Below are positions 3,192 to 6,573 of a stretch of DNA of 11,308 nt, one piece after another. The position numbers and the translations under genes were made by a program. Below the pieces are notes generated by a model. It ran no database searches and was not told where the DNA came from. It saw nothing but the letters and a program-made list of their open reading frames with translations. The DNA comes from Verrucomicrobiia bacterium (GTDB lineage: Bacteria > Verrucomicrobiota > Verrucomicrobiia > Opitutales > Opitutaceae): NCBI GenBank assembly GCA_030424825.1, contig JAUHWE010000087.1:1-11308 (forward strand), given 5' to 3'. Positions within the stretch are counted from its first letter, which is position 1. Each line of letters opens with the position of its first letter.

Positions 3192-3220
3192 TTGACAGCA
3201 TATGCCCATTTTTGCATATG
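3192..3220 (+). promoter_or_regulatory. Predicted promoter of the ars operon
   Basis: TTGACA at 3192-3197 is a consensus -35 box. A 17-base spacer leads to CATATG at 3215-3220, a weak -10 match. Transcription would then start near 3226-3228, at or next to the ATG at 3227, giving a leaderless or nearly leaderless arsR message. The ATG at 3218 would lie inside the -10 box. The ArsR-type dyad fills the spacer and -10, as expected for a promoter repressed by steric block. Confidence 0.55.
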
Positions 3221-3221
3221 C
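3198..3221. promoter_or_regulatory. Predicted ArsR operator (twin GCATATGC dyad)
   Basis: Two identical copies of GCATATGC (3198-3205 and 3214-3221) are separated by 8 bases, CCATTTTT. Each octamer is itself palindromic, so the pair is both a direct and an inverted repeat, with centres 16 bp apart. From memory, the CATATGC...TTTTT... layout resembles the E. coli/R773 ArsR-protected sequence. It sits directly on the predicted -35/-10 region just before arsR, consistent with autorepression relieved by arsenite or antimonite. Confidence 0.65.
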
Positions 3222-3226
3222 AAATC

Positions 3227-3592
3227 ATGGAAATAATTCAGGTCTACAAATGCTTTTGCGACCTTCAGCGGTTACGCATTCTAAACCTCTTAAAAGAGGG
3301 ACCGTTGTGCGTGTGCCATTTGGTTGAAATACTGGATTCCGAACAGGTCAAAATTTCAAAGCAGCTACGCTACATGAAGGAGCAGGGAATGCTTGAAGAT
3401 GAACGTGTCGCGCAGTGGAAAGTTTACCGCCTTGCCGAAATCGACCACCCCCTGCTGCAGCAAAACCTGAAATGCCTGCAAGACTGTTATGGCGAGGAAA
3501 TCGATTTTGACGAAGACAACAAAAAGCGGGCTGAGATAACCATTCGAATGCAGCAAGAAGATGCCGCCTGCGCCCAAGCCATTAAAATCTAG
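3227..3592 (+). CDS. arsR: ArsR-family metalloid-responsive transcriptional repressor
   Basis: This is a winged-helix ArsR/SmtB regulator of 121 aa from the ATG at 3227. In-frame ATG 3218 and TTG 3212 are alternatives, but both fall inside the predicted -10/operator. The helix-turn-helix is visible in SEQVKISKQLRYMKEQGML, followed by the wing (WKVYRL). The PLCVCHL motif gives Cys28 and Cys30, matching the CVC of the classic ELCVCDLC arsenite site of R773 ArsR; the third cysteine of that site is Val here. An extra CFC pair (Cys9, Cys11) precedes the first helix, and the C-terminal third has three more cysteines (CLQDC and AAC). The inducer site may therefore be built differently from R773. It is the first gene of the ars operon, 9 bases before arsC, and probably represses its own promoter. 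Family and arsenic role are well supported by context. Confidence 0.93.
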   Translation: MEIIQVYKCFCDLQRLRILNLLKEGPLCVCHLVEILDSEQVKISKQLRYMKEQGMLEDERVAQWKVYRLAEIDHPLLQQNLKCLQDCYGEEIDFDEDNKKRAEITIRMQQEDAACAQAIKI

Positions 3593-3601
3593 ATAATCAT
3601 C

Positions 3602-4045
3602 ATGTCCAAAATTAAAGTGCTAATTCTTTGTACTGGAAATTCATGCCGCAGCCATATGGCTGAGGGAATATTGAGAAACGCTGCCGGCGATCTCTTCGAA
3701 GTCTCGAGTGCGGGATCAAATCCAGCCGGCTATGTTCATCCTAATGCCATTGAGGCTTTAGATGAAATCGGGATCGATATTTCTAAACACACATCCAAAC
3801 ACCTCGATCAATTTCTAGACGCTGGTATCGATACCGTAATTACGGTTTGCGATGACGCAAACGAAGCCTGTCCGATTTTTCCAGGAAACGTGAACCGCTA
3901 CCATTGGGGCTTCGAAGACCCACCGAAAGCCACTAGGAAGGGAGAATCCGAAAGGGATGCTTTCCGACGCATACGAGATGAAATCCGAAAAGTTTTCGAG
4001 GCCTACGCAAGTGGCTATCGTCAAGCAGTTGATCAGAACACTTAA
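3602..4045 (+). CDS. arsC: Arsenate reductase, thioredoxin-coupled (low-molecular-weight phosphatase fold)
   Basis: This cytoplasmic enzyme should reduce As(V) to As(III) for efflux. It has 147 aa, against about 131 for the well-studied S. aureus pI258 ArsC. The N-terminal P-loop is C10-TGNSC-R16-S, the CX5R nucleophile loop of the LMW-phosphatase fold. The redox relay cysteines are Cys83 and Cys90 ([10 protein letters not shown]), and Asp106 (GFEDPPKA) is the expected general acid. These match pI258 Cys10, Cys82, Cys89, Arg16 and Asp105. The complete Cys triad argues for a thioredoxin-dependent reductase rather than a plain protein tyrosine phosphatase. It starts 9 bases after arsR, so the two are co-transcribed. 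The C-terminus is a charged helical extension. Confidence 0.95.
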
Positions 4046-4066
4046 ACGTGAGAGGAAAATTAGATT

Positions 4067-4243
4067 ATGAAAACAGAAGAAACAGCCAACGAAACAAAGC
4101 CAGAAACCAAAGATAAGCCCGGCTTCTTTAAGAGAATCGTCGACAAAGTGGACACAGCGATGAAGGCCAAAGCTGAAGAAAAGTCACAACAGAGTAGCTG
4201 CTGCGGCTCAGGGGATGGCGACAAGGGCGGCAAATGCTGTTAA
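4067..4243 (+). CDS. Small cysteine-tailed protein of the ars operon (58 aa), unrecognised
   Basis: An ATG at 4067 is preceded by a GAGAGG-type ribosome binding site at about 4050-4055 and opens a 58-codon frame ending with TAA at 4241-4243. The first ~18 residues are Lys/Glu/Thr-rich and look disordered. Residues ~18-40 ([20 protein letters not shown]) should form a basic amphipathic helix. The tail is Ser/Gly/Asp/Lys-rich with two vicinal pairs, Cys45-Cys46 and Cys57-Cys58, the latter at the very C-terminus. There is no signal peptide or membrane segment. Its last 10 bases overlap the permease start (ATG 4234) in another frame, so translation of the two is probably coupled. Vicinal thiols bind trivalent arsenic and soft metals well, so a metalloid-binding or delivery role beside the permease is plausible. 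That function is inference; I know no characterised family for it. Confidence 0.8.
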
Positions 4244-5187
4244 AGTTAGCAGACCTATTAATCTACGAATGGTTGGGTCTCGATCCGGAGACACGCTCTG
4301 GCGGGGCGATCCATTTCTTTGTCTACGACTCGATCAAAATCTTCCTGCTGCTCGCCTCGATGATTTTTGCAATCGGGGTCATCCGCACGTTTCTGGCAGA
4401 GGACAAGCTGAAGCGTTGGATGAGTGCCGGCGGTCTTTGGGGTAACCTTGTCGCCGCCCTCTTTGGAGCCATAACGCCATTTTGCTCCTGCTCTTCGATC
4501 CCCATTTTCATCAGCCTCCTGAAGGCGGGTGTCCCGCTGGGAGTGACCTTCTCTTTTCTCATCACCTCGCCAATTATCAATGAGTATCTGGTGATTCTGA
4601 TGGTCAGTGAATTTGGGTTTCCCGTCACCTTTGCCTACGTAGCAAGCGGGCTAGCAATCGGGACGATTGCTGGAGCGATCTTGGGACGTATGAAATTGGA
4701 TCGCTTGCTAGAGAAAGACATTACGTCTGTGGCAACACCGAGTGAAGGAATGGTCAAACACACCTTTACTTCCCGTATTCGGTTTGGCTATCAAGAAGCC
4801 CTAGATGTAATCCGACAAATCTGGCTTTGGGTGCTAGTCGGAGTCGCCATTGGCGCATTCATACATAATTATGTGCCGCAGGAAAGCATCCATCGTTTGA
4901 TAGAAGCTACAGGAATTTTCTCGGTGCCACTCGCAACCATCTTAGGGGTGCCAATGTATGGCAGTTGCGCTGCGATTGTTCCGGTAGCCGTAGTGCTTTT
5001 TGAAAAGGGCATTCCGCTAGGGACGGCACTCGCTTTTATGATGGCCATGGCGGCGCTGAGCTTGCCCGAAGCCATAATGCTTCGCCGTACGATGCGGCTG
5101 GCGCTTATCGCTCTTTATTTTGGCATCACTTCGCTCGCCATAATTGCAACCGGCTATTTGCTCAACGCCTTGGCCCCACTCCTTTAG
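4234..5187 (+). CDS. arsP: ArsP/DUF318-family permease
   Basis: This inner-membrane permease has 317 aa and about eight hydrophobic segments, with a basic/acidic cytoplasmic loop at about 152-185. The family signature [15 protein letters not shown] is at 79-92 with Cys84 and Cys86, followed by TSPIINEY (111-118). The second half repeats the pattern with [15 protein letters not shown] (238-252, Cys245) and LPEAIM. ArsP homologues export trivalent organoarsenicals such as methylarsenite, and other family members are linked to different metals, so the substrate is uncertain. The ATG at 4234 lies inside the preceding small ORF, giving a 10-base overlap and probable translational coupling. arsC and arsR lie upstream and acr3 downstream, which supports an arsenical role. 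No arsM methylase is in view to supply methylated arsenic. Confidence 0.88.
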
Positions 5188-5388: not shown

Positions 5389-6573
5389 ATGAACAACGAA
5401 GCTTGTCCCGCCAATGAGCGGAGAATGACGAACGTATTTGAACGCTATCTCACCGTCTGGGTCGGTTTATGCATCGTGGGCGGCGTATTGCTGGGAGCGG
5501 TGGCGCCAGGATTCGCCAAAGCGCTCGACGGCATGTCGATTAACGTAAACGGCGCTCCTGTCGTTTCCATTCCGATCGCCATTTGCCTGTTTTTCATGAT
5601 GTATCCTATAATGGTGAAGATCGACTTCACCAAGGTTATCAAGGCCGGTAAAAGCGGCAAGCCCGTGTTGCTAACCCTAATAATCAATTGGGGCATTAAG
5701 CCGTTTACGATGTACGCCATCGGCTTTTTGTTTCTCGGGGTGCTGCTCAGGGGTTTTATCGGAACAGACGCCGTCGATTTGGTAAAGATGCCGTTTGGCC
5801 TTGATCTGCCGGTGGGAGCCGAACGCGGCACGGGAACGGTGGTCTTGCATGAAGGTGTCAAAATGCTTCAAGTTCCGCTATGGCGCAGCTACTTTGCCGG
5901 ATGCATCCTTCTGGGGATCGCTCCCTGTACGGCCATGGTGCTCGTGTGGGGATACCTCTCTCGCGGTAATGATGGACTGACCTTAGTCATGGTGGCCATC
6001 AATTCTCTGACCATGCTGGTGCTTTACGGCGTCCTCGGTGGGTTTCTGCTTGGTGTGGGAAAACTGCCGGTCCCCTGGCAGGCACTACTGTTGTCGGTAG
6101 GCGTTTACGTGGCGCTTCCCCTAGTCGCAGGGTACCTCTCGAGACGTTGGATCATCGGGTGCAAAGGCGAGGTATGGTTTGAGAAAAAGTTTCTCCACAT
6201 TCTGACCCCCATTACCATCAGCGCGCTACTTTTGACCTTGGTTCTGCTCTTCAGCTTTAAAGGAGAGGTCATTCTCGCCAATCCACTAACCATACTTTGG
6301 ATCTCTATCCCGCTATTTCTCCAGACGGTCTTGGTTTTCGCATTGGGCTATGGAGCTGCTATCTTCCTGAAATTTAAATACGAAGATGCCGCTCCAGCCG
6401 CTTTGATCGGCGCCTCCAATCACTTTGAAGTCGCTATCGCCACTTCGGTGATGCTGTTTGGCCTTTCCTCCGGAGCCGCACTGGCAACTGTCGTTGGTGT
6501 GCTAATCGAAGTACCCGTAATGCTGATGCTGGTGGGTATCTGTAAAAAAACTACCGGCTGGTTTCAGGCATAA
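5389..6573 (+). CDS. acr3: ACR3-family arsenite efflux transporter
   Basis: This inner-membrane carrier should export As(III), and possibly Sb(III), using the proton motive force. It has 394 aa and about ten hydrophobic segments. The conserved thiol is Cys180 in [17 protein letters not shown], and the conserved glutamate is Glu347 in [12 protein letters not shown]; both are required in studied ACR3 proteins. A second conserved acidic motif, [12 protein letters not shown], follows. It is longer than compact ACR3 proteins of about 350 aa because of a polar segment at about 123-165, between FLGVLLRGF and LWRSYFAG. I recall related long forms with a segment here, so this is probably a subfamily trait. 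The ATG at 5389 has a well-placed GAGAG site; an in-frame ATG at 5425 is the alternative. It is probably co-regulated with arsR-arsC-arsP, though the 201-base gap allows its own promoter. Confidence 0.95.

Follow-up and report, generated by a model that had tools for sequence, protein, structure and literature searches.

A conserved small protein with two Cys-Cys pairs, encoded beside one branch of PF03773 permeases, as a candidate thiol partner in ars operons

The stretch of 11,308 nucleotides analysed here (the window) carries an ars operon in which a 58-codon open reading frame with a cysteine-rich tail lies between an arsenate reductase gene and a permease gene, and it raises the question of whether such a short ORF is a genuine gene and, if so, what its product could do there. 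All the genes concerned lie on the + strand. Specifically, an ArsR/SmtB-family repressor gene (3212–3592; NF033788, 66.8 bits, cut-off 55; PF01022, 41.3 bits, cut-off 22) is followed by a gene for a thioredoxin-type arsenate reductase, ArsC, with the LMW-phosphatase fold (3602–4045; PF01451, 80.7 bits, cut-off 23.2), which scores 130 bits against TIGR02691, under the equivalog cut-off of 174. The small gene (4067–4243) comes next, then a 317-residue permease of the PF03773 (ArsP_1) group with a TPFCSCS motif (4234–5187; 221.9 bits, cut-off 32.3) and an ACR3 arsenite efflux transporter gene (5389–6573; TIGR00832, 368 bits, cut-off 283). The profile matches to ArsC and PF03773 thus bear out the location given in the original prediction. 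Translation likewise agrees with the two cysteine pairs described there, at residues 45–46 (codons 4199–4204) and 57–58 (codons 4235–4240), the second at the extreme C-terminus; the protein has no CxxC motif and no N-terminal cysteine. The ribosome-binding site is plausible on sequence reading, as a GAGGA at 4052–4056 located 10 nt 5' of the ATG.

A search with the single protein returned three near relatives besides the window ORF. A profile built from 9 sequences reached 215 proteins at E 10, and the best 120 of these 215 all matched at E 1.3e-15 or better. Among these best 120, the protein ends in Cys-Cys in every case (KCC in 118, RCC in 2), the inner CC is present in 120/120 and exactly four cysteines are found in 107; some relatives carry an extra N-terminal CC or CxC. 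We aligned 45 distinct proteins, drawn from 48 loci: 42 have CC as the inner pair, two (L120 and L207) have CxC, and one (L208) has lost the pair by deletion. The terminal CC is kept in 43, L203 having a single Cys and L208 being truncated. Pooled Nei-Gojobori estimates over 17 pairs of 75–99.9% identity, which share sequences and are not independent, gave dN/dS values of 0.11 for the helix described below, 0.09 for the linker with the inner CC, 0.35 for the N-terminus and 0.18 for the gene minus its last codons, pointing to purifying selection. A chance ORF is ruled out by the conserved family of homologues and by the low dN/dS. From these comparisons of genomes, we conclude that the ORF is a genuine gene, one of a conserved family without a name.

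In the collections searched, the family occurs in bacteria of the Opitutales and their relatives. Among 372 genomes of the host's order, apparently Opitutales, 46 places in 43 genomes matched at E 2.5e-8 or better, including one decayed copy, after 5 of 51 places with E values from 7e-4 to 9e-3 had been dropped (G577, G607, G695, G610 and the second place in G561). A sample of 387 genomes from the phylum gave 31 places, of which 17 (E 0.0066 and up) were dropped before counting; the 14 that match clearly are spread over 12 genomes, all of the same order. Searching named genomes with a DNA pattern of the tail gave 57 stretches. A family member is present in 29 of them, and the labels of all 29 name groups of Verrucomicrobiota (such as Opitutia, Opitutales, Opitutaceae, Puniceicoccaceae and Cerasicoccus). 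One further stretch from this search, L120 ('bacterium isolate bin_182'), holds a variant with a CGC inner pair, overlapping a branch permease. Because the pattern requires KGGKCC by construction, its loci were kept out of the counts of tail conservation, save for the variant L120 among the 45 distinct proteins. A viral collection gave one weak match, at locus L020, which was inspected for CC-containing ORFs only.

The original prediction had called the protein unannotatable, which is too strong, as relatives already stand in several database records under the name 'hypothetical protein'. Its statement that no characterised family has this layout holds for Pfam and NCBIfam, where no family exceeds its cut-off for the window protein or its relatives and none of 42 family members matches any Pfam family at E 0.01. 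Two sub-threshold candidates were set aside, namely NF047525 (LIMLP_04285), matched by 10 of the 42 members with a best E of 0.0014 (cut-off 100 bits), and PF02754, at 14.8 bits (cut-off 20.6). In the open literature searched, which lies outside the primary ArsP and ArsEFG papers, the twin-CC protein is undescribed as far as the available portions of text extend, and the available portions of PMC4435449, PMC2963123, PMC9751042, PMC4562236, PMC9144182 and PMC6205960 make no mention of it. The gene thus adds an unnamed conserved family to the annotation of ars operons.

As regards structure, AlphaFold2 (mean pLDDT 66.6) predicts a single helix at residues 20–42 (codons 4124–4192; pLDDT about 80), the rest of the protein being coil of low confidence. 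The helix is basic and amphipathic, as had been read from the letters of the sequence, and in 39 of the 45 distinct homologues its hydrophobic moment ranks within the highest 5% of shuffles. By eye, and with no claim of homology, it resembles the helix of FtsY, whose role is membrane targeting, in being short, basic and amphipathic with paired hydrophobics first; the host genome's own PF00448 protein (L235) begins MLSLFKKFKEGLSKS.

The most consistent companion of the gene is the permease. When the 372 genomes were searched with the window permease, relatives appeared at 61% identity or more, followed by a gap down to 43%. Forty-eight fetched pieces hold a permease of this closer branch, two of them being parts of one gene in G599, and the small gene lies directly upstream of the permease in 44 of the 48. 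The other four (L178, L206, L211 and L212) are at contig ends, with about 100 nt or less before the permease start, or begin inside the permease. Where the permease of a genome has 43% identity or less, no match to the small gene was found at E 0.01.

Three small genes have no permease behind them. In L208 (G102:C78), arsR is followed by a stub reduced to the helix and by an arsC starting at the stub's stop codon, the permease and the Cys tail being gone as if lost by one deletion; this joint absence counts in favour of a link between the two. In G480, the small gene (L191) and the permease (L211) stand on two contigs, with the same 29 bases found, in opposite orientation, at the end of each; the two genes were apparently separated by an insertion or a repeat. 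The third, L207 (G518:C134), has an intact CC tail and, where its genus relative L202 has the permease, an opposite-strand major-facilitator gene (PF07690) downstream; no permease was found in the G518 genome at E 1e-20. This copy speaks against strict pairing. At the level of gene content and order, the pairing with one PF03773 branch is near-obligate. At one further locus, L205 (G593:C48), the permease and ArsC matches come in pieces, suggesting frameshifts or assembly errors.

The permeases that accompany the small gene are a distinct group in themselves. In a tree of 70 tips, the 43 sequences of the branch group together as a single clade (support 0.947, branch length 0.51). The cysteines of the CSC motif, C84 and C86 (codons 4483–4491 in the window), are present in 45/45 ungapped branch sequences, and the motif is common to the relatives too. 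A third cysteine, C245 (codon 4966–4968), is specific to the branch: it is found in 46/46 ungapped sequences (48 distinct, 2 gapped), whereas the position is Ala in 19/19 phylum relatives at 40–44% identity and Ala or Ile in 8/8 plasmid relatives. This deduplicated count replaces that of an earlier redundant alignment, in which C245 stood in 73 of 78 rows with 5 gapped. The residue is also present in 120/120 among the database matches listed, all of them 75% identical or more and including the window protein itself. In the predicted model of the permease (pLDDT 80, pTM 0.77), C84/C86 and C245 start two half-helices at similar positions in the two halves of the protein, and the three cysteines may meet in one site. 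No protein of known structure is related to the permease by sequence, and a search by structure yielded nothing at E 0.001; because the best match reached only E 5.9e-2, we make no claim as to its fold.

PF03773 permeases occur widely, and most of the relatives that we examined stand beside a small thioredoxin-like protein. We compared 19 phylum relatives, the best-scoring of 54 listed below the branch, and 8 plasmid relatives chosen for variety from 20 listed, there being 957 matching records. A thioredoxin-like gene with a GCxxC motif lies within about 1.5 kb of the permease in 14 of the 19 phylum relatives; among the examples tested, four match PF13192 and two match TIGR00412 ('MTH895/ArsE family'). 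The stretches examined for the other five (L215, L217, L222, L231 and L233) hold no ArsE-like gene, so such a partner is not universal. On the plasmids, which span Pseudomonadota, Bacteroidota, Chloroflexota, Fusobacteriota and Bacillota, a 'thioredoxin family protein' adjoins the permease in 8/8 cases, all of them over the TIGR00412 cut-off, and lies downstream of it in six. In one of these loci (L239, a Prevotella nigrescens plasmid) the gene sits between ArsG and the PF03773 permease, in a series annotated as ArsF, ArsG, thioredoxin family protein, permease, ArsC and ACR3. The mention of a redox-active disulfide protein 2 in ars operons, in the available part of PMC2963123, may be noted here.

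The same script applied to 51 loci of the twin-CC family (3.3–11.5 kb each, three without permease) found an ArsE-like gene beside none of them. Conversely, the twin-CC profile found nothing convincing in the 19 phylum and 8 plasmid loci (best E 0.017), and the two kinds of gene never occur together in the loci examined. Both are genes for a small dithiol protein adjacent or close to an ArsP_1 permease; the ArsE/MTH895-type proteins (TIGR00412, PF13192), however, are a thioredoxin-type family with GCxxC and are encoded downstream of the permease in six of the 8 plasmid loci, whereas the window gene lies upstream of it and lacks CxxC. The window protein matches neither TIGR00412 nor PF13192, and none of 42 family members matches TIGR00412. 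Since an ArsE-like gene stands beside most of the relatives and beside none of the 51 family loci, one permease branch seems to have exchanged its ArsE-like partner for an unrelated thiol peptide.

The original prediction had proposed a metalloid chaperone, a donor to the permease or a small scavenger. The donor fits best, given the pairing, the Cys pairs, C245 and the lack of an ArsE-like partner, while the gene's tracking of one permease, and not of ars operons generally, makes a plain scavenger less likely. The reading that we favour, with a confidence only slightly past the midpoint, is that the twin-CC protein would be a small thiol protein dedicated to the neighbouring permease as its partner, passing trivalent arsenic to it; we favour it because of the branch pairing, the conserved Cys pairs, the branch-specific C245 of the permease and the absent ArsE-like gene. 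In such a mechanism, the basic amphipathic helix would lie against the membrane on its cytoplasmic side, next to the permease. The disordered tail would bind As(III), possibly organo-As(III) or Sb(III), via its Cys pairs, and thiol exchange would then deliver the metalloid to a site in the permease made up of C84, C86 and C245. Such a third cysteine would suit a ligand held by three thiols, such as inorganic As(III), and C245 could shift the preference reported for Campylobacter ArsP, which is for trivalent organoarsenicals and not inorganic arsenite. A bolder version, to which we give clearly less credence, is that a membrane-resting, mostly disordered carrier replaced the ArsE-type partner jointly with C245, and that an organoarsenical-type permease might thereby have become a three-thiol arsenite/antimonite exporter.

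Known systems offer partial parallels. According to the part of PMC6205960 available, Campylobacter jejuni ArsP exports trivalent organoarsenicals and not inorganic arsenite. Compared by its description in the available parts of PMC4435449 and PMC6205960, it is assigned by name to the same permease group as the neighbour in the window, with a C(S/T)C motif, and differs in that the window branch has the extra C245. ArsD, a metallochaperone and trans-acting repressor, is also a small ars protein with vicinal Cys pairs, but it is about twice as long as the window protein, serves the ArsA ATPase and has its chaperone site at Cys12/13/18. Neither Pfam nor NCBIfam has an ArsD model that hits the window protein at E 10. 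In the window, the ORFs from ArsR to ACR3 include none of the size of ArsA. In R773 ArsD, as described in the available part of PMC4562236, the C-terminal pairs Cys112–113 and Cys119–120 are predicted to be regulatory and the chaperone site is N-terminal, so that the resemblance of the tails is a lead and not a sign of membership. In the MerA/MerP/MerT system, paired cysteines relay a soft metal to a protein; the metal there is mercury and the sequences are unrelated to the twin-CC protein, so this is an analogy only.

What sets the branch apart is that a non-homologous thiol peptide in ArsE's place coincides with one extra cysteine in the permease. In the literature searched we found no description of the role of an ArsE-like protein with a PF03773 permease. 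A comparison of the two arrangements would allow a direct test of whether such permeases depend on a thiol donor in the cytosol, and of whether having three cysteines or two decides between inorganic and methylated arsenic.

The alternative that survives best, although we consider it unlikely, is that the peptide acts, in the manner of ArsE-type proteins, as a redox partner, a dithiol reductant for ArsC, for arsenicals or for the permease cysteines, instead of a carrier. It does occupy the place held beside related permeases by a thioredoxin-fold dithiol protein, and an ArsC homologue is near 26 of 47 copies. Nevertheless, the window protein, with no CxxC, no thioredoxin match and a predicted structure of helix plus coil, does not look like such a reductant, and the gene tracks the permease more than it tracks ArsC: in 19 of the 47 loci the stretch examined, in which some contigs end early, holds the permease without an ArsC homologue (12 with ArsR, 7 with neither).

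The assumption that the substrate is arsenic has its own competitor, in which the pair exports another soft metal or a thiol compound and the arsenic setting is secondary. Three loci speak for it (L195–L197, in G464, G055 and G208), having an identical small protein and near-identical permeases. They adjoin a Cation_efflux gene for a cation-diffusion-type transporter, with a P-II gene near and an OEP (outer-membrane efflux) gene downstream, so the substrate there could be another soft metal. Each of these genomes has a second copy of the small gene, with an ArsR homologue near it in G055 and G208, not in G464. In all, 8 of the 47 loci, these three among them, lack ArsR and ArsC homologues nearby, seven having the permease only and one none of the four query genes, some contigs ending early, and the window permease also scores against SaoE (114 of 325 bits) and the SO_0444 Cu/Zn exporter (104 of 300 bits), far below these NCBIfam equivalog cut-offs. 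Against this stand the ArsR and/or ArsC homologues near 39 of the 47 loci. We regard a different substrate as quite improbable; given the eight loci, arsenic is the probable substrate of the pair and should be called no more than that.

Somewhat less probable still is a metallothionein-like thiol buffer that scavenges trivalent arsenic in general. Four cysteines in 58 residues, the additional N-terminal CC or CxC of some relatives and the persistence of the L207 copy without a permease would all suit a buffer, but such a protein would be expected neither to pair with one permease branch nor to conserve a helix of low dN/dS, nor to stay at just four cysteines in most of the members listed.

The gene arrangement complicates the reading of tail conservation. 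The last codons of the small gene, AAATGCTGTTAA, overlap the permease start, ATGCTGTTAA (ATG at 4234), by 10 nt, a feature absent from the original prediction, so that the codons of the C-terminal Cys pair fall within the overlap, and the KGG codons just before it, AAGGGCGG (4223–4230), also read as a probable ribosome-binding site of the permease. Conservation of the CC tail is, because of this overlap, ambiguous when taken alone. In 28 of 44 loci, a possible start codon of the permease falls within the end of the small gene. In 14 others (L166, L168, L171, L176, L177, L179, L180, L181, L185, L186, L187, L189, L204 and L205), an in-frame stop places the start of the permease frame after the small gene, and all 14, representing 13 distinct proteins, end in KCC. 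A further five loci, L188, L192–L194 and L200, count as 'apart' only by alignment start; they were left out of the 14, since in them the permease frame runs open into the small gene. Across the larger set of 17 loci that are 'apart' by this criterion, synonymous changes are seen in the tail codons and no Cys is lost. The retention of KCC in 14/14 loci without overlap, together with these synonymous changes, indicates that selection at the protein level maintains the tail; the notion that the tail is a mere by-product of the permease start is rejected as sole cause by the same 14 loci, and the overlap may still be a constraint on codons elsewhere. That the ORF is a leader whose translation mainly delivers ribosomes to the overlapping permease start, the peptide itself mattering little, is in keeping with the frequent overlap and the probable internal ribosome-binding site, but is very improbable, as KCC is kept where there is no overlap, L207 retains the gene although no permease follows it, the helix and inner CC, which lie outside the overlap, have a dN/dS of about 0.1, and neither the free variation of the peptide nor the dependence on overlap or position that would mark a leader was found.

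Finally, the host of the window deserves a remark. Its assembly consists of 811 contigs and is 89% complete and 5.5% contaminated. In the genome search that covered this genus, 13 of 19 places (E 0.013 and up) were dropped before counting. Ten genomes of the same genus lack the small gene, and the nearest permease in the tree comes from another family of the host's order (G452/L163). These two observations make it possible that the operon reached the host genome by horizontal transfer or that the contig was misbinned, a question that leaves the findings on the family unaffected. Downstream of the ars genes, the window also carries on the – strand a sulfatase gene (PF00884, 9024–10412) and the C-terminal part of a second sulfatase (PF14707, 10773–11279).
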